DNA from: Planctomycetota bacterium
Lineage (GTDB): Bacteria; Planctomycetota; Planctomycetia; Pirellulales; UBA1268
Length of the DNA: 64,000 nucleotides
Assembly: GCA_014238855.1 (NCBI GenBank)
Contig: JABAAH010000005.1
Span: 1-64,000 of the forward strand
Reading direction: 5' to 3'
The number at the start of each line of letters is the position of its first letter. Within the stretch, counting starts at the first letter, position 1. The translations under genes and the position numbers were made by a program. Below are positions 26 to 32,520 of the stretch, in pieces. The notes under the pieces are model-generated. The model searched no databases. It worked only from the letters and a program-made list of their open reading frames with translations, and had not been told where the DNA came from.

Positions 26-1048
26 CTAAGGAAGTCTGCCTAACGAGTTCCCATCCATTCGATTGCCGAGGTAGTTGTACACCTCAAAATCAATCGTATC
101 CGATAGGAAGTGAACCCCTGCATCTGCTGTCGATGTTGCAAAAACACCCGGATGATAACTACTTGCACCACTATTCGTGGTACGAACAGAATTGTTTTTA
201 ATCATTGTTGGATCTTCATTAATCGTCGACGAATTTGGGCGAATCGCCGTTGTGACACCCAACTGCTCCTGCCTGTACATTCCTGCCCAGACAGCAATTT
301 CTGGTCGACGCTCGAGCAGCAAGAACGTGTTGGACAGCCCGTCTGTGATGTATTTAAACTCGCACGGGAAATTAAATGCCCAATTAAAAACACCGGGGGT
401 TGATTTCTCACTCGAAACATCATTGTTGTTTGCCCACCACCAGTTTCCATGTCGACTACAGAAACTGTTGGCTGATGCACAATCCGGCGGTCTTGAAGGA
501 AACCCAGATGGACCAAGGCACACGTCGTAGCACCGACCGCCGTGCCGCTTATTGTTATTGTTGTACGTTCCATCCAGCATCTGGCCAGAAAACGCAAATG
601 GATTCGACGGACAGAATTGGGCTGTGTAGATCGGGTCAGCCTGATTGACAGGAGCTAATGCAGTCCAATTCGATACGCTTTGACCAGATTGCTTGGTGCC
701 ACTCGTCTGGGCTACGGTGCCAAAATCCATTTTGTCAAACGTTGTGCTCATCTCAAGAAATGGCATGAGATGGACGACAAAGGTACTCCAACCATTATTA
801 GTACCACCCCCTTTTGCAATCTTCCGATTCGACGCAGTTGGAAGCGATTCATGAGCATCAGCATAGGTGTGCATTGCCAACGCATTCTGTTTCATTTTAT
901 TGCCACACGCCGACCGACGAGCAGCCTCACGAGCCTGCTGCACTGCGGGCAGTAATAGACCGACAAGAACGCCAATAATGGCGATCACAACCAGCAACTC
1001 GATCAGCGTAAAGCCAGACCGATGCCGGAAACCATTTGAAAGTTTCAT
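26..1048 (-). CDS. DUF1559 prepilin-like protein (first copy)
   Basis: 340 aa. The N-terminus has a short basic leader followed by [15 protein letters not shown], the type III (prepilin peptidase) signal with cleavage expected after the Gly and a hydrophobic pilin helix behind it. Next comes [19 protein letters not shown], typical of the DUF1559 family that is greatly expanded in planctomycetes. The C-terminus ends in [16 protein letters not shown], shared in form with the paralogue at 1785-2813. The start is backed by a GGGG stretch about 9 nt upstream. By family it is probably an exported pseudopilin-type surface protein with a beta-rich C-terminal domain; the substrate or partner is unknown. 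It is last in a minus-strand row DUF1559 - lipoprotein - DUF1559. Confidence 0.93.
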
Positions 1049-1784: not shown

Positions 1785-2813
1785 TTATGGCAACTTGCCT
1801 CTTGCATCACCATCGCCACGATTCCCCAGAAAATTGTAAACCTGGAAGTCAATCGTATCGCTCAGCCAGTGACCGGCTCCGTCAGCAGTCGCTACGCCGA
1901 ATACACCACCAGCGTGCATACTGCTCGCTCCACAGTTATTCGCTCGTTGTGGGTTAGTACCTGCAGAAGTTGTATCGTCTATAAATGAAGAATTTGGCCG
2001 AATTGATGTGGGTGTACCGACCTCAGCACCAAACATTGCAGAGCGTGTGTGTAACCCTGGCCGTCGTTCAATAAGCAACAGAGTATTCGAGGTGCCGTCA
2101 GTGATGTCCTTAAATTCGCACTTAAATTCAAAACTGAAATTAAACACTCCAGGCGTTGAAGTCACCTCCCTAACTGGACTTCCTATCGATGCCCACCAAT
2201 TGCTATTTGCACGGCACCATGCAGCAGTAGCTCCGTTTGGGCAATCCGGTGTCGCCGCAGGAAATCCCACTGGACCAAGCGACACGTCATAGCACCTGCC
2301 ACCTGAGCGTCGATTACTGTTAGTAGCCCGCCCACCAAAATATTTCCCATCGACCGTTCTCCCAGCAAATGAGTCTGGATCCGAGGGACAGAACTGCGCG
2401 GTATAAATTGGATTACCCTGAAAATTTGGTGCCAGCGCTACCCAGTTCGAAGGATTTCCAACGTTACCAGACAATTGATTTTCGCTGAGGTCTAACTGGT
2501 CATAAACTGTGCTCATTTCAATAAAAGGCATCAGCTCAACTGTAAAGGTTTTCCATACACCGTTTGGTGTGGAGCTCCCCTCATTTCTATAATTTGTTGC
2601 AGACGGCAACGACCTGCTGGCATCTGCATAGGAATGCATTGCCAACGCATTCTGTTTCATCTTGTTGCCACAGGCCGACCGACGAGCAGCCTCACGAGCC
2701 TGCTGGACCGCAGGCAACAAAAGGCCAACAAGGACGCCAATGATGGCGATCACTACTAGCAGTTCGATCAGCGTGAAGCCGGACCTTCTCCTCACAACAT
2801 TTGAATGTTTCAT
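1785..2813 (-). CDS. DUF1559 prepilin-like protein (second copy)
   Basis: 342 aa from the ATG at 2813; the open frame extends 8 codons further, but a strong GGAGGAG lies at 2818-2824 (minus strand), correctly placed only for this ATG. The mature start is [19 protein letters not shown], with a prepilin peptidase site and hydrophobic helix, then [24 protein letters not shown], nearly the same as in the copy at 26-1048. The C-terminus VYNFLGNRGDGDARGKLP also matches. The N-terminal coding DNA of the two genes is very similar while the centres differ, which fits duplication followed by divergence of the exposed part. Probably exported and assembled or anchored through the pilin-type helix. Confidence 0.93.
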   Translation of the reverse strand: MKHSNVVRRRSGFTLIELLVVIAIIGVLVGLLLPAVQQAREAARRSACGNKMKQNALAMHSYADASRSLPSATNYRNEGSSTPNGVWKTFTVELMPFIEMSTVYDQLDLSENQLSGNVGNPSNWVALAPNFQGNPIYTAQFCPSDPDSFAGRTVDGKYFGGRATNSNRRSGGRCYDVSLGPVGFPAATPDCPNGATAAWCRANSNWWASIGSPVREVTSTPGVFNFSFEFKCEFKDITDGTSNTLLLIERRPGLHTRSAMFGAEVGTPTSIRPNSSFIDDTTSAGTNPQRANNCGASSMHAGGVFGVATADGAGHWLSDTIDFQVYNFLGNRGDGDARGKLP

Positions 2814-2925
2814 AGCACTCCTCCAAATAAACCACAAAAAAATAGAAAACTTAATGATCTACGAAGAAGATAATTAAATCAATCGTGTAATCACAGGATT
2901 ATGCAAGAAAACCAAGACATAAACG

Positions 2926-21807: not shown

Positions 21808-22485
21808 TCATTTCGGAATGTAATCTGACGTAAGACCACGACCGCGCGCAAGTTCTAATACCTGGTTGACCACATTTTCGAGTGAGAATCCATCTGTATG
21901 AATAATAATTGCATCTTTCGCAGCCTCCATTGCCCCAATGGGCCGATCCTTATCTCCTTGATCTCGCTCAATCTGACTATGCAAAATTTCTTCTATTGAG
22001 TGGCTTTTATCACCATGCTCAATTCTCTCATGATACCGTCGTGCCGCCCGAGCTGATGGCGATGCATCAAGATAAACCTTTAATTCTGCACACGGAAATA
22101 CCACGGTGCCTTGATCACGACCTTCCGTAACAAGATTGAATTTTCTTGATAGCTTTCGCTGCATTGCTGTCATTTCTTCGCGTACCGAAGGGGCATCTGC
22201 AACCGGCCGGGTTGCAGCAGTGACTCGATCAATACGTATCTCTACAGAAATATCTTCACCGTTTAAAAACACCGCTCCACTGAGAAATTGAATATCCAGG
22301 CTTGCAGCCAACTCTGCGAGTGCCTTTTCGTTATCAAGAGCTACATTTCGTTGGAGTGCCGCTAGCGCAACTGCTCGATACATCGCGCCAGTATCCATAT
22401 GACACCAACCAAGCTTGCTAGCAAGAAGTTTCGCAGTTGAGCTTTTACCTGCACCTGCAGGCCCATCAAGTGTGATGATCTTCAC
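21808..22485 (-). CDS. cmk: Cytidylate kinase
   Basis: 225 aa from the GTG at 22485; GGAG lies about 10 nt upstream and the family N-terminus (KIITLDGPAGAGKSSTAKLLA) begins here, whereas the longest frame would start at 22548 inside the upstream gene. It phosphorylates CMP and dCMP. It has the P-loop GPAGAGKSS, the substrate region HMDTGAMYRAVA, LVTEGRDQGTVVFPCAELKVYLDA and the lid ARRYHER. The start overlaps the upstream gene by 20 bp and plsC follows 7 bp after the stop, indicating tight translational coupling. Confidence 0.95.
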   Translation of the reverse strand: MKIITLDGPAGAGKSSTAKLLASKLGWCHMDTGAMYRAVALAALQRNVALDNEKALAELAASLDIQFLSGAVFLNGEDISVEIRIDRVTAATRPVADAPSVREEMTAMQRKLSRKFNLVTEGRDQGTVVFPCAELKVYLDASPSARAARRYHERIEHGDKSHSIEEILHSQIERDQGDKDRPIGAMEAAKDAIIIHTDGFSLENVVNQVLELARGRGLTSDYIPK

Positions 22486-25150
22486 GAAAAATGATCTCCA
22501 AATCGGCCATCTCGTAACGACGAAGCAAGCAATTAATAGCTTTGTCATCGATAACTAACGCACCATCTTTAGCACTATCTTGAGCTTTAGCTTCAGTCGA
22601 TCGTACTTCATGCACTTCACCACTCCGACGAACATGACTTACCTCACGATTAAAATTAAGTTTTATATGGCTCTTGTGCCCACATGACTCAAGCAACCGA
22701 AGGCGTATACCTTTACCCAGTACATCATGTTCTAGGGTAACCGCAGAAACCAGCCGTATATTTGGAGGCAAATCCAATGGCATTGAAGGCAACTGAAGTG
22801 ACTGTTCTGCAGCCCAATAAATCCCAGAATCAATAATGTGTGGCAAATCGATACCGAGAGCGAAATGAAATGACTGAAGCTTACTTGTACAGTTCGTTGT
22901 CAAGACAGTGTCGATCGTGTGTGAACTGCTCTGCACATGCCAGGGATAGCATCCCGTAAAAATCTGTAGGCTACTGGATTGTGTAGAGCCATTCTTTTTC
23001 CTACTCTGTTGATCAACTACAGCTCCTGCACTCACAATTGAAATGAGCCGTGGTGAAAAAATATGCTGCCGCTCAGTCTGTACAAGTTGTGTCTGAATTG
23101 CCCGAAAGATGTCGCAGAAATCATTTTCATTCCAGGCGAAACGACAAGCAAAAAATCGACCAAACGCATCGCCCGAATGAGGCACAAGCGAATGAGCTTC
23201 CTGAGTCGGCTCAATATCAATCGATAACGACACAGCAGCTACATCTGGAACAAGCTGTATTTTTTGCGAGAATCGCGCAAGCACAGAGCCATTTCCATGG
23301 ACAAGCGTTCCGTGGCTCTCGATGCCGTCCCCGCAGTGATCGACGCTGTCGGCCACCATTGCTGAATACTGAATATCTGACGGATGAGAACCAGGCTCAA
23401 TCCAACGAAGAGCCAGTTGTTGTGTAAGCCGATTTCGCTCATCTTTTCGACTGCGAACAGACACAATCCCACCAGTTTTGCCATGGACCCTTACAGCGAA
23501 ACCGTCGGTAGATAGCGTTAACGCATCTTGAGGATTTCGTCGCTTTGTCAACCATCCTCCAAGAAACCTCTCTCTCCATCCTTGGGAGCCATCGGTAGAC
23601 AGTTGCTTCTTTTCAGGATTTAGACAAGATTCTTCTTGAATGCAAAACTGGTTGAGCAACTCTCTATAACGGCTTTGATTTTTTACAAGCCATCGCGACT
23701 CAAACGCAATCATTTCAGACTGTGACACTGTGGTGGTCGTATCAGCTTCACACTCCATCACGGTATTTTTCAATTTTGTGTCAGGTGTAAGACCGACACG
23801 AAAACCATCTCTTTCAAATTCAATCGGAGTGGACAGGTCGGCTGTTTCACTTAAGAGACTTTCTGCAGTACAAAATCGACCAAATACATTTGTCCATGAT
23901 GCCGCTCGGCGTAGCAATACAAACCAGGGGCTCGCAGTAGCTGCATAATGACAAAACATGGTGAGTACTATGTGCTCATGATCCATGGCATCGCTTAAAA
24001 CCGAACTCAACGATAGCACTGCTGCGGAACTACGAGCATCAACTACTTTTGGTTCGAATGCCTCAATTCTATTTTTGCTTTCGTCTTCCCATTGGAATCT
24101 CGATGCACCAGCAGACCGCATAGGAAACCCATCAAAACTTGACCACAATACACCTCGATACCCTAGGCGTTGCAGGATTGGTAACATGACTGAAGCACGT
24201 GGCCCGGCATAACAACCAAAAATCTGAGGCGTCACACCACTAGCTCTTTGACACGCAGCTTTTCCCGCAGCAACATCTTGCTCGATTTGCTCTGGTGACA
24301 GTAATGAAAACGGGAGATTGCTCGACACACTACCCACAAGAGACATAGAACCATCAGCAACCCTACTATGTATAGAGTTCGAGATATTTGACGATCCATG
24401 GAAAGAGTCCATCGTCTCCGTGTCAGCTAATAATGTGAACGGAACTGGAGACAGCAGTTCTTGTTCAAGTGCTGCTGTGGTGTTTCCAGAAAAAAGCACA
24501 AGATCAAGGCACCAGCATTCTACTGGGTAGAAGTGATCTCTCGCAGACTCAAGACACTGAAAAGCCTCTGATAATTTTTCTCCTGCAACTGTTGACTGAT
24601 CTTCTCTCCAAGCTTTCGCTGCTGCGACAACAGCTTCTGGAAATCCTGTCTGCTCTAAAAGTGTGTCCGACCGCATTCGGCTTGCCAATCGCTCGAAAAG
24701 CAAGACCGTAAGGCCGAGAGACCGAAAGTCATCAACAAATGCAACCTGCCACGTTGAAAGTTTTTCTTGTCTTATATCAGCTTGTAGGCTCGTAGAAGTT
24801 TCATTACAAAACAACGCTAATAAATCCAGAAGAAATGTTTCGTTATCATCCTGGTGAAGAAAATTTTGTTGTATATCGGATGGAGGTGAAGCTCCCGTTG
24901 TAAACCGCTCTAAAAGTCCTTCGGGTACAATGCCTACGACTTCTTCCTCATCGGTCCATGGTAAATCCACACTTGCCCAGCTAGGCATCCCATCAGACTC
25001 ACAAAGCACACCAGGGTGCCATGCAATCGTCCAGGCATTCAAAATTGCCGATGCTTCATCATTTTCTAGCCATTCGGATAAGTCTTCGAGCGAATGGCAC
25101 GGAAGAAAAACCTTAATTTTCGGTTGAGAGATTTTTTCAGATTTATTCAT
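22466..25150 (-). CDS. GH38-like (alpha-mannosidase-like) protein, activity uncertain
   Basis: 894 aa, no signal peptide, so probably cytoplasmic. Two parts are seen. The first half contains VTPQIFGCYAGPRASVMLPILQRLGYRGVLWSSFDG and later HEHIVLTMFCHYAATASPWFVLLRRAASW, resembling the seven-stranded barrel of GH38/GH57 enzymes. The second half (ALTLSTDGFAVRVHGKTGGIVSVRSR, and a C-terminal beta domain with GKGIRLRLLESCGHKSHIKLNF and LEIIFRE) resembles the C-terminal domains of alpha-mannosidases. The Asp/His catalytic motifs of GH38 are not clear, so it may be an inactive or divergent homologue. Its 3' end overlaps cmk by 20 bp, an odd pairing for a glycosidase. Confidence 0.6.
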   Translation of the reverse strand: MNKSEKISQPKIKVFLPCHSLEDLSEWLENDEASAILNAWTIAWHPGVLCESDGMPSWASVDLPWTDEEEVVGIVPEGLLERFTTGASPPSDIQQNFLHQDDNETFLLDLLALFCNETSTSLQADIRQEKLSTWQVAFVDDFRSLGLTVLLFERLASRMRSDTLLEQTGFPEAVVAAAKAWREDQSTVAGEKLSEAFQCLESARDHFYPVECWCLDLVLFSGNTTAALEQELLSPVPFTLLADTETMDSFHGSSNISNSIHSRVADGSMSLVGSVSSNLPFSLLSPEQIEQDVAAGKAACQRASGVTPQIFGCYAGPRASVMLPILQRLGYRGVLWSSFDGFPMRSAGASRFQWEDESKNRIEAFEPKVVDARSSAAVLSLSSVLSDAMDHEHIVLTMFCHYAATASPWFVLLRRAASWTNVFGRFCTAESLLSETADLSTPIEFERDGFRVGLTPDTKLKNTVMECEADTTTTVSQSEMIAFESRWLVKNQSRYRELLNQFCIQEESCLNPEKKQLSTDGSQGWRERFLGGWLTKRRNPQDALTLSTDGFAVRVHGKTGGIVSVRSRKDERNRLTQQLALRWIEPGSHPSDIQYSAMVADSVDHCGDGIESHGTLVHGNGSVLARFSQKIQLVPDVAAVSLSIDIEPTQEAHSLVPHSGDAFGRFFACRFAWNENDFCDIFRAIQTQLVQTERQHIFSPRLISIVSAGAVVDQQSRKKNGSTQSSSLQIFTGCYPWHVQSSSHTIDTVLTTNCTSKLQSFHFALGIDLPHIIDSGIYWAAEQSLQLPSMPLDLPPNIRLVSAVTLEHDVLGKGIRLRLLESCGHKSHIKLNFNREVSHVRRSGEVHEVRSTEAKAQDSAKDGALVIDDKAINCLLRRYEMADLEIIFREDHHT

Positions 25151-25466: not shown

Positions 25467-27713
25467 ATGGCACGCTCGCGAAACGTCTGGGGTATTGATA
25501 TTGGCAAGTGTGGGCTGAAAGCGCTCCGCTGTAGCCTTTCGTCGCAACAGGGGAAACTTGTCGCAGAGACATTCGATTACATTGAGTACCCGATGCTGCT
25601 TACGCAGCCTGAAGCTGACCCAACGGAACTCATTCGAGATGCACTCGAAGAATTTCTTCGACGCAATGACACTGCCGGAGACACAATTGCAGTTTCTGTA
25701 CCTGGGCAATCCGGACTAAGCAAGTTCATAAAATTGCCACCGGTCGAAGCAAGTAAAATTCCAGATATCGTCACATACGAAGCTCGACAACAAATCCCAT
25801 TTCCTCTCGAACAGGTTGTGTGGAGTTGGCAACGGCTTGAGGGCGGCATTGAGGAGAGCGGCTTTGTTATCGATGCTGAAATCGCTCTTTTTGCAATGAA
25901 ACGAGATCAGGTAACGAAGGCAATCGAGCCATTCAAAGAAGCTGATATTGAAATCGATCTCCTACAGCTAAGTCCGGTGTCTTTAGCTAATGTTGTCATG
26001 TTCGACCAGCTTCCAAAGGCGAGTGAGATTGACCCAGAGGCTCCACCTGCATCGATTGTCTTGGCATCGATGGGTGTTGATACAACCGACCTCGTCATTA
26101 CAAATGGATTAAAAATATGGCAGCGGACAATGCCTATTGGCGGCAATAATTTCACCCGAGCACTTGTGCAAGGGATGCGGATGACCTTCGCAAAAGCAGA
26201 AAAACTTAAGCGTAATGCCGCACGAGCAGATGACCCGAAAAAAGTCTTCCAAACGCTCAGACCAGTGTTTAATGAGTTTGCCAGCGAACTGCAACGTTCC
26301 CTGAACTACTTCACCGGACAAGACAGGACCGCGAAGATTGGCCAGGTTTTGCTCGTAGGCAATGCCGCGAAATTACGAGGCCTAAGTGACTTCCTAGCAA
26401 AACAACTTCAACTGGAAGTACACCGTTTACGTGAATTCAAGTCACTCGAAGGAGAACTCGTTTTAAAGGCTCCCGTGTTTCGTGAAAACCAACTTGGTTT
26501 TTCGACTGTGTACGGACTATGCCTCCAGGGCCTGGGCGTTTCAGGCATCCGAACCAATCTTCTGCCAAGTGATGTTACTCTTGACCGCTTAATACAGTCG
26601 AAAAAACCCTGGGCAGTTGCTGCAATGCTTGGCCTCTTGGTTGCAGCCCTTATCAACTTTTTTGGCATCTACATTGCTTGGAGCAGTTACTCTGAAAATC
26701 TTTTTGCAGACGCTTTCACGCAAGTTGACTCTGTTGTTGGAAAGTCTTCACAGATCCAAAGCAGTCTTCAGCAGGTTCAGGCTGAAGAATTAGAGATTCT
26801 CGACACTCAGCAGCGGCTCTCTCAAATTAGTGACCGTCGGTTTCAGTCACTCGATTTAATTCGTGCTATTGAGTCGATGATACCGCGTGATGAACCAGAC
26901 AAAACAGACACCCCATTACGTGATGCAATCCAAGCAGAGAAAGCAGAAACCACTGACGAAGCCACCGCGTTACCAGTTATTCCTGTTTCAATTAACTATG
27001 ACGAATTGCATATTAATTCTCTCGATTGTCAATATTTCGAAGACCTCTCGACTTGGTTCGAACCTCTCGAAGAAGACTGGAAACGCACCGTCGCTAGAGA
27101 TCAATTTGAAACAAACGATGCGGCTGAAAAAACCCCCGATACGGACGCTGAGGGACAGAGTAATACTCAGGCCGAAGTGGATACTCAGGCCGAAGTGGAT
27201 ACTGAGAGTGAGGCTGATACAGAATCAAATGAGCCTTTAATTGAACCTGAAGAAAGCGATCCAGAAGCTCCTACGGGTGAGGGCTGGGTGGTGCAACTAG
27301 TAGGTCATCATTTTCACAATGAGGATTACCACGCACCATTTGAAGGTCGGACTTATCTGCGCACGACATTGATTGAATCACTACTTGGTGAAAGAGGTGC
27401 GATTGTAACCGTGACCGCTGGCCCAATGGCTGGAGAAAAAGTTTTGCCGAAAGAGATCGGGGTAGGTTTCCCGGCGATTATTGAATCCAGCCCTATCGAG
27501 AATTACTGGCTATCGACAGCCGTTGATAGTGTTGGCGATGACGGGATGGGGATGGGGCCAAGCCGAGGTCCTACGCGAGGACCATCCGGAGAATTATTAG
27601 AAGAAGGATTAGAACTCAAAAAGTATGACTTCATTATTCAATTTGTCTGGCAGCCGAAAACTCCCGGTGCTGTTCAAATAAATTCCAATGGCGAAAATGG
27701 TGATGACTATTGA
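25467..27713 (+). CDS. pilM: PilM-type actin-like ATPase fused to a membrane PilN-like part
   Basis: 748 aa, about twice the usual PilM length. Residues 1-350 are the actin-like PilM domain (VWGIDIGKCGLKALRC, ISVPGQSGLSKFIKLPPVE, VTYEARQQIPFPLEQVVWSWQ, LKRNAARADDPKKVFQTLRPVFNEFASELQRSLNYF). A membrane helix at about 380-405 (PWAVAAMLGLLVAALINFFGIYIAW) and a coiled coil follow, as in PilN. An acidic linker at about 550-600 contains a perfect 18-bp duplication. A C-terminal beta-containing domain ends near a GMGMGPSRGPTRGPSG segment. PilM/PilN form the inner-membrane platform of type IV pili and related secretion systems. It heads a four-gene plus-strand cluster. Confidence 0.88.
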   Translation: MARSRNVWGIDIGKCGLKALRCSLSSQQGKLVAETFDYIEYPMLLTQPEADPTELIRDALEEFLRRNDTAGDTIAVSVPGQSGLSKFIKLPPVEASKIPDIVTYEARQQIPFPLEQVVWSWQRLEGGIEESGFVIDAEIALFAMKRDQVTKAIEPFKEADIEIDLLQLSPVSLANVVMFDQLPKASEIDPEAPPASIVLASMGVDTTDLVITNGLKIWQRTMPIGGNNFTRALVQGMRMTFAKAEKLKRNAARADDPKKVFQTLRPVFNEFASELQRSLNYFTGQDRTAKIGQVLLVGNAAKLRGLSDFLAKQLQLEVHRLREFKSLEGELVLKAPVFRENQLGFSTVYGLCLQGLGVSGIRTNLLPSDVTLDRLIQSKKPWAVAAMLGLLVAALINFFGIYIAWSSYSENLFADAFTQVDSVVGKSSQIQSSLQQVQAEELEILDTQQRLSQISDRRFQSLDLIRAIESMIPRDEPDKTDTPLRDAIQAEKAETTDEATALPVIPVSINYDELHINSLDCQYFEDLSTWFEPLEEDWKRTVARDQFETNDAAEKTPDTDAEGQSNTQAEVDTQAEVDTESEADTESNEPLIEPEESDPEAPTGEGWVVQLVGHHFHNEDYHAPFEGRTYLRTTLIESLLGERGAIVTVTAGPMAGEKVLPKEIGVGFPAIIESSPIENYWLSTAVDSVGDDGMGMGPSRGPTRGPSGELLEEGLELKKYDFIIQFVWQPKTPGAVQINSNGENGDDY
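27163..27198 (+). repeat. Perfect 18-bp tandem duplication in the pilM linker
   Basis: ATACTCAGGCCGAAGTGG occurs twice in a row (27163-27180, 27181-27198), encoding QAEVDT twice in the acidic linker; a third, diverged unit (ESEADT) follows. It is a recent in-frame slippage product. Confidence 0.9.
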
Positions 27714-27775
27714 CACGTTACTAGGTTGGCAAGAGCCTACGTTGCTATTTTCTCGCCCCAAATACGAAAAAAACT

Positions 27776-29170
27776 ATGGTTGAGATTCCCGATGATATCC
27801 GAGGCTACTTGAAGCAGTTGCAGAAGTATCACTTTTGGCTACTGGCATTGCTCATGCCGCTTATCCTTGTACCTTTAGCCTTTACAGCTGATGCAAAACT
27901 CTTGCGCGAGATAGACACTCGGTCATCTGCAGTAAAAGCAAAAATCGACTCGATCAACTCTATTACACGGAAGACCGCAGAGGGGCTCGAAGAATTTGGA
28001 CACCCACAACCAGAGTGGGCAGAACAGATAACCAAGTCAAACGATGCATTACGGGAAGAAATTTTCTCACAATGGAAACATTTATGGGATCAACAAAAGT
28101 CAATTCGAACATGGCCTGCTGAATTAAGAAGTGACTTTTTAAAGGCAATTATTCGATTGAAGCCAGGTAAAGATTTATCTACCCGTTTTCGTGACAGGTA
28201 TCTCAACACCATACGCCGCGTTGTAAAACAACTACCCGAGCGGATTGATTCCCAAGAATCAATGGAGTCCTTGGGGTCTGATAGCGGATTTGGCGGGGGC
28301 GACTTTGGAATGCCTACCGGAGCCGTCGACGACAGTGCGGACCGAACGGTTTTCTGGGATTCAATGGACCAAAGCGAACTCTACCAATCTTTCTACTGGA
28401 CAACTACACCGTCAACCAAGCAGATACTACTCGCACAGGAAGAACTTTGGGCGTATGCGATTCTTTGCGATGTTGTAGTCAAGGCAAACAATCAGTCAGC
28501 TGGTTATCACGATGCAACCATTCCGTACATTAGTCACTTAGCTGTCGGGTATCGTGCCGCCGAAGAAGATCCTGGTGGCCGGAAAGGTGGCCGAATAAAA
28601 ACTACATCAAGCGGGATGGATGATTATATGGGCATGGACATGGGCATGGACATGGACATGGGCATGGATGGGGAAATGGGCAAGCCTCTTAATCCAAGGT
28701 TCGGATCCTCAGTTCAAGGTGACATGGGCATGGATTATGATGAGTTTACGGGAATGCCAATCGATTCTGGTTCTGAGGATAACGATGACGCTCTTTTAAA
28801 TTGGATCTATGTCGATTCAGAGGGTACGCCACTAGATAGTGCTACTGTGGCCGATTCACCGGATACAAAATTTGTTCATTACATTCCCTTTTGCCTTAAA
28901 GGTAAAGTAGATCAGCGAAAACTTGATCTGCTTCTTCGGGCATTCGCAACTATGTCAGTACCAATTGATGTCCGGCAGGTACGAATAAACCCAGACACCA
29001 TGGACTATATGGGCGGTGAAGGGGAAATGATGGGCAGTATGGGGCTAGGACAAGATTCTGAAGACGGCGTGCGACGTTACGACTTAGATATTGAATTACG
29101 AGGGTCAATTGCACTCTCGCAAAGACCTGATGGAACAGCTCTCGGACTAGAAACTGATTCACAGAATTAA
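27776..29170 (+). CDS. Membrane-anchored component of the pilM cluster (PilO-like position)
   Basis: 464 aa. One membrane helix near the N-terminus (HFWLLALLMPLILVPLAFTA, about residues 19-38) is followed by a helical, probably periplasmic domain. This is the topology of PilO/GspM proteins, and the gene holds the position after pilM, but sequence similarity to PilO is not evident. A Met/Gly/Asp repeat at about 281-303 (MGMDMGMDMDMGMDGEMG) and further MG clusters (DMGMDYDEFTGMP, MGGEGEMMGSMGLG) divide it from a C-terminal domain with FVHYIPFCLKGKVDQRKLDLLLRAFATMSVPIDVRQVRI, reminiscent of small PilO-type ferredoxin folds. No clear ribosome-binding site before the ATG. Confidence 0.75.
   Translation: MVEIPDDIRGYLKQLQKYHFWLLALLMPLILVPLAFTADAKLLREIDTRSSAVKAKIDSINSITRKTAEGLEEFGHPQPEWAEQITKSNDALREEIFSQWKHLWDQQKSIRTWPAELRSDFLKAIIRLKPGKDLSTRFRDRYLNTIRRVVKQLPERIDSQESMESLGSDSGFGGGDFGMPTGAVDDSADRTVFWDSMDQSELYQSFYWTTTPSTKQILLAQEELWAYAILCDVVVKANNQSAGYHDATIPYISHLAVGYRAAEEDPGGRKGGRIKTTSSGMDDYMGMDMGMDMDMGMDGEMGKPLNPRFGSSVQGDMGMDYDEFTGMPIDSGSEDNDDALLNWIYVDSEGTPLDSATVADSPDTKFVHYIPFCLKGKVDQRKLDLLLRAFATMSVPIDVRQVRINPDTMDYMGGEGEMMGSMGLGQDSEDGVRRYDLDIELRGSIALSQRPDGTALGLETDSQN
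28628..28681 (+). repeat. Met-Gly-Met-Asp coding repeat
   Basis: Short tandem ATGGGC/ATGGAC hexamers encode alternating MG and MD dipeptides. Repetition at both DNA and protein level suggests expansion by slippage, with the reading frame kept. Confidence 0.85.
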
Positions 29171-29188
29171 ATAAGGAGGATTTCTTTT

Positions 29189-31105
29189 ATGGGACTTCCA
29201 AAAATAAAATTTACAGCTGATGCGATTTGGTCATTCGTGGCAAACCACGGTGAAAAAATACTCGTCACAATCGTGGTCTTGTGCAGTTTGCCGCTTGCAT
29301 GGGGCGGCCTCAATGCCTTGAGGTTAAAGACCAGATCTTCGGCAGAGGAACCAGCTGAGATTATAAGGTTGGCCACCAACGCCAAAAGCTTACTCAGCCG
29401 GCCGTTAAGTCCTAATCAGCAACAAGAGTTTCGCAAAAGCCTACGAGCAACGAATAGCGACCCGGACGCAACATTGGAATCTTGGAATCCTAAAGAAATT
29501 AGCCGTTTGTCGGCCGATGTTGGATTTAATCGTCCACTCCTTGGTGATATACAGAGACGACAAATCCCTGTCATATTTCCTCTCGAGCGCCTCGTTGCGA
29601 CTGCCGGTGTTGTTGCTATTGCTGATCAAGATGAACTTCTTGCTGGAGGTGATCCGTCATTTGCTGGAGGTTTTCCAGAAATGGAAATGATGGATGATCC
29701 TATGGGTTCACAGCCAACGATCATGTCGCCACCAGCAAAAAAAATGCCGTATGTCATTCTCACTGGACTCATTCCTTATCGAAAACAGTTTGATGAGTAC
29801 ATCTCGCTTTATTCGAGAGCAAGTTACCGCAATATGGAACGAGACATCCCGATCTGGCATGATTTTGCAGTTGAACGATTAGAAGTTCGGCCAGGTGGTG
29901 GTGGTGACTGGGAGGTTATTGACTTAGCGAATCTTTATGAGGAGTGGAAAGATACTTGGAGCGGCGCGGCTACTGATACTATCCCCCAGCAGTTTATTCT
30001 TCCTGCCTCACAAAATTTATTTAATCCGGAAGAAGTTCCAATAGGTTATTGGAGCCCCCTCCCAACACTTGCTCTCAAACCGACGCTAACTGGCGTTGAT
30101 TCAATGGGCGGTGACGGCGGTATGAATTCTGGGTCAACATGGGGAATGCGAGCAATCCATCCTTGGGCAAAAGATGAAATGAAAATTTTATTAGAGGACC
30201 AAAAGAAATTGGCACTCGAACAACAAGATGGCATGCAATTTGGTGGGCAGGGAATGGAATCTGGTATGGAATTCGATGGAGGAATGAGCGGGCAAAGCCA
30301 AGGCACATTTAGTCCTTTTAGAGACACCGAAATGGACATGGAAGGGGATGGCATGACCGAGGATTACGACGATAGCATGATGATGGGCTATGGTCCGGAT
30401 GGTGAAAGCATGATGAACGATCTTGACTACCGTCTTTTTCGATTTATCGACACAAGCGTAAAGCCGGGCAGTCTCTACCGATACCGCATTACACTTCGCG
30501 CCTGGAATCCAAACTGGATGCTTCCAAGAAAATTTCTTGAAAATCCAGAATCTGCTGAAGAGCAATTTGTTCAAGCAGCAAGCTCAGAACCCTTCCCAAG
30601 CCTGCAAGCCATGCCTCTCCATGTGCCGGCAAATAATGTCCTCCTCGCTCGACTTTTGTTGAGAGATGAAAAGAAACTGTACGGGCTCGGCGTCAGTGAC
30701 CAAGAACTTCTTGTTCTTGATAGTAATGAAGAATCAGGGAATTTTGAACTTCATTCGATTACCAGCAAACCGGGACAGATCGTGGGAAGCAGAAAAGGAG
30801 CAAGAAAAATTAAACAGTGGAACAATCGTAGAATTTCAGTTCCACCACACAACGTTGACAGTGGCCAGACACTCTTGGCCGTCGCTGGCCAGCAGACAAT
30901 TGATGGCAAAAAACGTCCAGGAAGAGGTTTCACACCACCAGAACCACTCGAAGTCCTTATTGCCGATGCCGCCGGGACTCTCGATATTATTACTGCGGAC
31001 TCATGCGAAGAAACTGTTCGGGAATACCTGCCAACAATTCCGGGGTACCAACCACCGAGGCCGGTTGATCCGTCCATGATGGAAGGAATGGAAATGGGGT
31101 TCTAA
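29189..31105 (+). CDS. Membrane-anchored Met/Gly-rich component of the pilM cluster
   Basis: 638 aa; a strong AAGGAGG at 29173-29179, 9 nt before the ATG, fixes the start 18 bp after the previous stop. One membrane helix at about 27-46 (KILVTIVVLCSLPLAWGGLNAL) is followed by a large extracytoplasmic part. It contains VPYVILTGLIPYRKQFDEY-like and LYRYRITLRAWNPNW blocks separated by Met-rich stretches at about 165-180 and 345-415 (GMQFGGQGMESGMEFDGGMSG, MTEDYDDSMMMGYGP), and ends MMEGMEMGF. No named family is recognised. Position, coupling and topology make it a probable subunit of the same envelope machine. Confidence 0.75.
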   Translation: MGLPKIKFTADAIWSFVANHGEKILVTIVVLCSLPLAWGGLNALRLKTRSSAEEPAEIIRLATNAKSLLSRPLSPNQQQEFRKSLRATNSDPDATLESWNPKEISRLSADVGFNRPLLGDIQRRQIPVIFPLERLVATAGVVAIADQDELLAGGDPSFAGGFPEMEMMDDPMGSQPTIMSPPAKKMPYVILTGLIPYRKQFDEYISLYSRASYRNMERDIPIWHDFAVERLEVRPGGGGDWEVIDLANLYEEWKDTWSGAATDTIPQQFILPASQNLFNPEEVPIGYWSPLPTLALKPTLTGVDSMGGDGGMNSGSTWGMRAIHPWAKDEMKILLEDQKKLALEQQDGMQFGGQGMESGMEFDGGMSGQSQGTFSPFRDTEMDMEGDGMTEDYDDSMMMGYGPDGESMMNDLDYRLFRFIDTSVKPGSLYRYRITLRAWNPNWMLPRKFLENPESAEEQFVQAASSEPFPSLQAMPLHVPANNVLLARLLLRDEKKLYGLGVSDQELLVLDSNEESGNFELHSITSKPGQIVGSRKGARKIKQWNNRRISVPPHNVDSGQTLLAVAGQQTIDGKKRPGRGFTPPEPLEVLIADAAGTLDIITADSCEETVREYLPTIPGYQPPRPVDPSMMEGMEMGF

Positions 31106-31185
31106 AGTATTCCACTGAGGAAAAGCGAGCACTGCTGCTTCACTCATTGACTCACATGGTCAGAACGAAATTGGTCGAAATCCTT

Positions 31186-32520
31186 ATGCAAAAACTTATT
31201 ACAAAAAAAACGAAGCTCTACCGTATCGCGTTGTCCGGAAGCTTCTCGGCCGTGCTGGTATTGAATGCAAGCTTTCTCTACGCACAGGCAGAACCGAAGT
31301 TCAGTCGCCTCTCTCTGCTTGAAGGATCAAGCGAGATGAAGGTTTACAAGAATGACCTTCTGTCTGGAAAGAACTTTACAGAGAAGCATCAACGGTTGCT
31401 TTTGAATGAAGGTCTTCCACAATTATTTCTTGACGGAAATCGGCTCGAACGATCACAAGTTCGCCAACGCCTTCAGAAAAATTTGTTTGATTCAATAAGT
31501 GATCCTGCTGCTTACAAAATTGCGAGGGACTTAGCCGTTACCGAACTTTCAACTTTAGCTCGTAGCAAAGAAATTTCAATCAACGGAAGCATTAATGCAG
31601 CATTGTTTCTTGGAGAACTCAAAGAACAGAAAGGGCTGCTCGTCGCGACAGCTACCAAGCCACTTTCTGAACTCGTTTCTGATGAATCTATCACGCCTTC
31701 CGTACGAATAGCCGCTCTTCTTGGTTTGGGTAACAGGGTGAAAGAAGCGCGACAGTCGGCTAATGGCAGCTCAACAGCGGCAAACGTCGTCCGCATCATA
31801 CCCACAATGGAACAAATTATCACGCTCCCAGCCGAACAAGTACCAGCAATTGCTCGAGACTGGATGCAAGCACGAACCCTTGAATACGCCTCTGATTTAC
31901 TTCCTCTTTTGGGTGATGACTCCCAAAAGCTCACCGAAGTATCAAAAGGTGTTGTTGTAATTACGAAAAACGAGGCACGCTCCATCGACCTCAGAATTCG
32001 ATCTGTTGTCTTTTTGTCTCGTCTAGTGGATACCAACATTGCCTTGCCTACGGCAGACATCATGACCATCACGGATGAACTCGTACGTAAATCACTTCGT
32101 GAAGCTTATGGAACTATTCAAGACAAAAAGTTTGAAGAAGAAATAACTGGCATGGACATGCAGGGTGGCGAAGCTGAGATGATGGGCTTTGATCCAATGG
32201 GAATACCGGTTGAAATTGAAAAAAATTATTTACCAATCACCGCCAACCTTCGGGCAAGTTGGCGACTAGTGAGTCTTGCTGATTCTATGAATCGACTCTC
32301 GGGGCAAATGAATAACGACAAGGAAACCTACGAAAATAACGCAGAACGTCTGCGTGCTTTTGGAGTCAAAATTTATGAAGAGCCAAAAGATACGTCAATC
32401 ATAAGTGCCGTTGAAGAATTTGATCCAGAATCAATAGTTCCTGATGTCGAGAACTCAGAAACCGTCGACCCCGAGAAAGAAACAACACCAAAAAAATTCT
32501 CACCCTTTAAACTCCGATGA
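31186..32520 (+). CDS. Exported helical protein, fourth gene of the pilM cluster
   Basis: 444 aa from the ATG at 31186, which begins a good signal peptide (KLITKKTKLYRIALSGSFSAVLVLNASFLYAQA); a TTG at 31147 would add 13 residues. The mature part is almost all helical with HEAT-like spacing (SVRIAALLGLGNRV, LRIRSVVFLSRLVD, AINGSINAALFLGEL-type units). Near residue 320 it carries ITGMDMQGGEAEMMGFDPMG, the same Met/Gly-rich character as the three genes before it. The C-terminus is acidic then basic. No family recognised. Convergent with ilvB, 11 bp between stops. Confidence 0.75.
   Translation: MQKLITKKTKLYRIALSGSFSAVLVLNASFLYAQAEPKFSRLSLLEGSSEMKVYKNDLLSGKNFTEKHQRLLLNEGLPQLFLDGNRLERSQVRQRLQKNLFDSISDPAAYKIARDLAVTELSTLARSKEISINGSINAALFLGELKEQKGLLVATATKPLSELVSDESITPSVRIAALLGLGNRVKEARQSANGSSTAANVVRIIPTMEQIITLPAEQVPAIARDWMQARTLEYASDLLPLLGDDSQKLTEVSKGVVVITKNEARSIDLRIRSVVFLSRLVDTNIALPTADIMTITDELVRKSLREAYGTIQDKKFEEEITGMDMQGGEAEMMGFDPMGIPVEIEKNYLPITANLRASWRLVSLADSMNRLSGQMNNDKETYENNAERLRAFGVKIYEEPKDTSIISAVEEFDPESIVPDVENSETVDPEKETTPKKFSPFKLR

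Follow-up and report, generated by a model that had tools for sequence, protein, structure and literature searches.

The window, i.e., the whole stretch of 64,000 nucleotides analyzed here, was taken from contig JABAAH010000005.1 of a Planctomycetota bacterium (UBA1268; assembly GCA_014238855.1). It contains a four-gene cluster headed by a pilM homolog. The four open reading frames (ORFs) all lie on the plus strand, with intergenic gaps of 62, 18, and 41 bases. ORF1 (25467..27713; 748 amino acids, aa) is composed of a PilM actin-like domain at residues 9-354, a predicted membrane anchor at residues 383-401, and a PilN-like periplasmic tail. ORF2 (27776..29170; 464 aa) has a predicted N-terminal anchor at residues 20-38, a coiled-coil-like stalk, and a predicted C-terminal beta-alpha-beta-linker-beta domain. 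ORF3 (29189..31105; 638 aa) has a predicted N-terminal anchor at residues 24-42 and two low-complexity linkers. ORF4 can be read from a TTG (31147..32520; 457 aa) or from an ATG (31186..32520); the ATG is the better start and leaves a clear signal peptide. This signal-peptide-like stretch is the sole hydrophobic candidate of ORF4, and no anchor was predicted. The initial annotation, made from the letters of the DNA, had described a PilM/PilN-like fusion followed closely on one strand by two single-anchor proteins and an exported helical protein, and the coordinates, anchors, and signal peptide agree with it. The scan for promoters and terminators gave no excess over shuffles, and no matches were found in the PHROGs search.

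ORF1 was assigned by domain and profile searches. It matched Pfam PilM_2 (E = 2.7e-31; 109.2 bits against a cut-off of 27) and, with 134.6 bits, passed the curated cut-off of 133 of TIGR01175 (pilM). By this curated model, ORF1 is a true PilM. The match to NF045709, the family of Akkermansia muciniphila Amuc_1101, was also strong (6e-56 across residues 1-476), but its 190.4 bits were under the equivalog cut-off of 650, which was reached by none of 118 planctomycete genomes. In the HH profile comparison with Amuc_1101, made with no Akkermansia rows on the planctomycete side, the probability was 100% over profile positions 1-472. This match takes in the actin-like domain, the anchor, and the coil behind it; farther on, no match was significant. 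On these alignments, ORF1 is a homolog of Amuc_1101 and not a member of NF045709. PilM homologs were present in all 118 planctomycete genomes sampled, yet the platform genes behind PilM carry no family name.

Conserved gene order and the proteins behind PilM

The gene neighborhood was compared among 59 relatives, 118 genomes sampled throughout the phylum, and the Akkermansia locus. The latter was retrieved with an Amuc_1100 query, a sequence for which PDB entries 6lad and 6kny are matches. PilM, ORF2, and ORF3 were contiguous in all 20 readable loci of the window's own family, in all 13 taken from different families within the order, and in all four from a second order of the same class. Outside the class, proteins two and three had often diverged too far for the profiles used. 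In Akkermansia, the order is pilM (Amuc_1101), Amuc_1100, Amuc_1099, and secretin (Amuc_1098). The secretin gene directly follows ORF3 in four loci from several planctomycete families (L057, L060, L106, and L107). In all five Akkermansia loci, and in 6 of 16 from other classes, it lies within 6.5 kb after pilM. The order of pilM, PilN/O/P-type genes, and secretin is complete in Akkermansia and in several planctomycete families. The gene set can thus be written pilM(N)-"O"-"P"-Q: apart from the joining of PilN to PilM, it is the pilM-N-O-P-Q order. The expectation that the gene order is conserved among planctomycetes was confirmed. The suggestion that the later genes fall outside the PilO/P/Q scheme was not: ORF2 and ORF3 occupy the PilO and PilP positions with secretin next in relatives, ORF2 is weakly PilO-like, and ORF4 alone departs.

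ORF2, ORF3, and ORF4 matched no Pfam family, and the Pfam PilN, PilO, and PilP models were not matched by the later platform proteins; a single distant member of the ORF2 family matched T2SSM at 0.016. The C-terminal ferredoxin-like segment of ORF2 (28883..29107, +; PFCLKGKVDQ...RQVRIN - linker - RYDLDIELRGS) was delimited by a structure model and sequence alignments. Structure prediction used the window's own protein sequences singly, and both models, of ORF2 and ORF4, were poor. The ORF2 model is strand-helix-strand-linker-strand at low confidence (predicted local distance difference test, pLDDT, 50). Foldseek returned 123 matches with it, none significant (E of at least 1); the weak matches included PilO of Myxococcus (3jc8, rank 2), PilO of Pseudomonas, and Amuc_1100 (6kny), and the PilO entries 2rjz and 5uvr were listed. 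When a planctomycete-only ORF2 profile was searched against 177,635 PDB sequences, Myxococcus PilO (3jc8) again came first, at only E = 0.34, and the alignment covers the same strand-helix-strand piece as the model. The best local HH alignment of ORF2 with Amuc_1100, not significant, also falls within this segment. An Amuc_1100 match obtained with ORF2 profile A4 was set aside as circular because that profile holds Akkermansia rows, and the search was redone without those rows. Since the weak results agree on one family and one segment, ORF2 is likely a PilO-like protein.

ORF3 matches were found in 53 of the 59 related genomes. Its C-terminal part is conserved and reads as beta-rich, and the PDB and Pfam searches gave at most weak fn3-like hints. 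It is by position alone that ORF3 would hold the PilP/Amuc_1099 slot. No PilP or GspC match of ORF3 was found in Pfam or PDB.

The gene next to pilM on the other strand (22466..25150, -) is transcribed divergently from it and encodes an 894-aa protein with the motif PCHS(L/F)ED. Its place beside pilM recurs in 16/20 loci of the own family, in 6/13 from further families, and in 2/4 from a different order, and it had no match in Pfam, NCBIfam, or PDB. It is possible that this gene is a functional partner of the pilM cluster.

The filament machine of the genome

PilM, secretin, PilC/GspF, and prepilin peptidase were each counted once in the genome. PilB-type ATPases were found, one of them with an MshEN domain, and a PilT-family ATPase scored 372 bits against a cut-off of 319. 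DUF1559, a family absent from 14 control genomes, had 26 matches in the 3.1-Mb genome, some of them fragments. The genome therefore encodes a complete type IV filament machine, i.e., assembly ATPase, PilC/GspF, prepilin peptidase, prepilins, and secretin. Because only one copy of each core part was found, the cluster must belong to this machine, as far as an assembly that is about 91% complete can tell. A similar set has been reported in Rhodopirellula baltica, with pilM, pilB, pilC, and pilT together with 74 DUF1559 genes (PMC2754498).

The cluster is best explained, with a probability of roughly 80%, as the inner-membrane alignment subcomplex of the cell's single type IVa-pilus-like machine, composed of the PilM-PilN fusion, a PilO-like ORF2, and a PilP-like ORF3, with ORF4 as an adaptor and flexible linkers between the folded parts. 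Cytoplasmic PilM would couple the PilB and PilT ATPases and PilC to the rods that the PilN-like tail, ORF2, and ORF3 would form in the periplasm. ORF3 would reach towards the secretin, and DUF1559-type prepilins would make up the filament. ORF4 would be a secreted adaptor made of helical repeats, taken into the operon at the secretin gene's position in the window's family, and it would most likely bind ORF3 or the secretin. The Met/Gly/Asp tracts may serve as flexible spacers between folded domains, derived at least partly from hexanucleotide slippage. The cluster is a diverged form of an already known type of machine, to which one lineage-specific part, ORF4, was added. The proposed envelope machine headed by PilM with a PilN-like tail was supported by the PilM models, the profile comparison, and the conserved order. 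The idea of an undescribed system did not hold in its stand-alone form, as gene order and genome inventory tie the cluster to a known pilus platform.

Several results count against this explanation. The secretin gene of the window's family lies apart from the cluster, beside other genes; in the own genome, it is at the end of contig C134. ORF3 belonged to no known family in Pfam, NCBIfam, or PDB. No single match of ORF2 to PilO or Amuc_1100 was significant (E of 0.34 and of 1.1 or worse), PilO was not found with a second, smaller ORF2 profile (A7), and the HH comparisons of ORF2 with Amuc_1100 and of ORF3 with Amuc_1099 were not significant. The assembly consists of 218 contigs, and at this completeness the single copies could miss others.

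The same parts could also belong to a type II secretion-like or pseudopilus system with no surface pilus, in which DUF1559 pseudopilins would work like a piston and push proteins through the secretin. The DUF1559 proteins have long C-terminal domains behind the prepilin motif, and the best match of the PilC-like protein is GspF. However, the PilT-family retraction ATPase over its cut-off and the PilB-type ATPase with an MshEN domain are pilus hallmarks, and PilM within a pilM-N-O-P-Q order is the arrangement of type IVa pili. The piston system is possible, though on the unlikely side.

Profile searches found no pilus ATPase, secretin, or peptidase gene in the window, as had been stated from the letters of the DNA, though two prepilin-like DUF1559 genes are present. 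The first (26..1048, -; PF07596 4e-33, PF07963 2.2e-8) carries the prepilin N-terminal methylation motif and is a candidate client pseudopilin. The second (1785..2837, -; PF07596 8e-35) is pseudopilin-like and has the same motif. The two genes flank a small lipoprotein-like gene.

ORF4 and the Met/Gly-rich tracts

ORF4 follows ORF3 in 19 of 19 loci of the own family that extend far enough; locus L089 ends before it. In locus L051 (8201-11434, -), ORF3 and ORF4 form one frame of 1077 aa joined by a (MMPPG)n linker, and this fusion argues for a joint role. Neither HEAT nor any other Pfam family was matched by ORF4. The model is all-helical at low confidence (pLDDT 36), and a weak match was found to an artificial HEAT-type protein (alphaRep, E = 0.15). 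ORF4 is thus an exported, helical protein, and its fold is probably HEAT-like. The NCBIfam AvrBs3 match (0.0026; 15.7 bits against a cut-off of 1000) was considered spurious, a resemblance between helical repeats. The idea that ORF4 is left over from the helical N-terminal part of the secretin was rejected, as no similarity was found.

The ORF4 family was matched in 100 of 119 genomes, own family included, and it is a stand-alone gene in most other families of the order. All 20 stand-alone loci read outside the family lie away from pilM. Their neighbors often include a histone-deacetylase-like gene, near fatty-acid oxidation-like genes (names read from the sequences and not a database result). 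From these stand-alone genes, it is most likely that a pre-existing gene moved into the operon as ORF4 in the window's family. The same distribution would fit ORF4 as a bystander, i.e., a HEAT-like protein with another job that landed behind ORF3 by chance. However, ORF4 adjoins ORF3 in every readable locus of a divergent family and is fused to it once. In two genomes (G041 and G228; loci L127 and L136), moreover, the secretin gene and a stand-alone homolog share a strand and are 5-6 kb apart. A chance position of ORF4 is therefore unlikely, and an adaptor that belongs to the platform is preferred. In L127, acyl-CoA acetyltransferase-like and fatty-acid oxidation-like genes lie between the ORF4 homolog and the secretin. 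Elsewhere in the own genome (L125, contig C66, 9866-10756), an exported HEAT-repeat protein (PF13646 2e-18) is encoded directly after the sole PilC/GspF gene; it is a second helical-repeat protein adjoining a pilus gene.

The initial annotation drew attention to Met/Gly-rich tracts in all four products. In ORF1, the tract GMGMGPSRGP (27543..27572, +) is coded by a GGGATG repeat. ORF2 has a Met/Asp/Gly linker (28616..28681, +) coded by a (ATGGRC)n array, of which 28628-28668 is an array of ATGGAC-type hexamers in 6.8 copies, and the Met/Gly/Asp-rich linkers of ORF3 (30233..30415, +) were recognized from the sequence and the Met counts. Met clustering was measured as the richest 30-residue stretch in 134 ORFs of at least 150 aa from 196 kb of the same genome, with 2000 composition-preserving shuffles. 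ORF2 and ORF3, with 9 and 8 Met per 30 residues, were the top two, and all others had at most 5. The observed value was reached by 0 of 2000 shuffles for ORF2, 6 for ORF3, 80 for ORF4, and 1198 for PilM. The named tracts were therefore all present and strong in ORF2 and ORF3, but weak in ORF4, and in PilM the Met clustering was at chance level.

The tracts of orthologs are found in the same inter-domain places, and their length and letters vary freely. Met/Gly/Asp tracts occur in the window's genus and Met/Gly tracts in L061, L088, L098, and L101, whereas the main ORF2 linker is Gly/Pro/Ala without Met in L094 and L100, and the ORF4 linker has no Met in L050, L054, L055, L093, and L095. Neither conserved Met spacing nor conserved Met content was found in the tract orthologs, so that of the two features expected to be conserved, gene order was and the tracts were not. 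The variable length and letters together with the DNA repeats are explained by flexible linkers between folded domains, and the tracts look like such linkers, grown at least partly by repeat slippage; slippage as the cause would fit the hexamer array. A perfect 18-base tandem repeat in the pilM tail (27163-27203), coding for QAEVDT repeats, is a second sign of repeat-driven linker growth. A separate metal-linked envelope complex, defined by tracts that would coordinate copper or some other metal or contact one another, is highly improbable: the two most Met-rich stretches beat their shuffles and Met-rich linkers recur in several other lineages, but metal binding predicts a conserved Met spacing that was not seen, linkers in the same place can have zero Met, and an array of DNA hexamers encodes the ORF2 tract. 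This tempting interpretation can be closed as unsupported; the sense that the cluster merits attention holds, but not for the Met/Gly reason.

Comparison with known systems

In planctomycetes, the pili-like fibres observed at large crateriform structures carried gold-labelled dextran, and the uptake of dextran and protein into the periplasm is active, with its mechanism unexplained (PMC5394234). The MUL2 locus of Akkermansia was tied to attachment and mucin transport and proposed to build a pilus for attachment and substrate concentration (PMC13174399). A tie between this pilus and planctomycete dextran uptake may be suggested. Tentatively, and with the chances quite low, the machine might be the planctomycete passage for macromolecules across the outer membrane. 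A retractile DUF1559 filament on the pilM-ORF2-ORF3 platform, with the secretin at crateriform structures, would catch polysaccharide and draw it into the periplasm, a task in which the MUL2 pilus locus is proposed to assist in Akkermansia, and ORF4 would be a lineage-specific gate or scaffold at the joint of platform and secretin. Linking the platform genes to a pilus gives targets for the question of periplasmic uptake.

The type II platform GspL-GspM-GspC belongs to the same architecture class of actin-like and anchored ferredoxin-like proteins, and GspL, like ORF1, has the actin-like and anchored parts in one chain. In contrast to it, the PilT-family ATPase and the TIGR01175 PilM support the pilus branch here. 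The canonical PilM-PilN-PilO-PilP-PilQ of type IVa pili shares the gene order, the membrane topology, the PilM family, and a weak PilO match. Unlike in that system, PilM and PilN form one chain here; the proteins encoded after them are larger, contain long linkers, and match none of the Pfam PilN/O/P models; and the secretin gene is unlinked in the family. The Akkermansia cluster Amuc_1102-1098, which is the MUL2 locus, has the same succession of PilM, anchored protein 2, anchored protein 3, and secretin, with PilM and secretin homologous. Amuc_1100, by reading of its sequence, resembles ORF2 in a strand-helix-strand with a low-complexity insert before the last strand. However, ORF2 and ORF3 have no significant sequence similarity to Amuc_1100 and Amuc_1099, and the window's family has ORF4 in the secretin's place and no pilin gene upstream.

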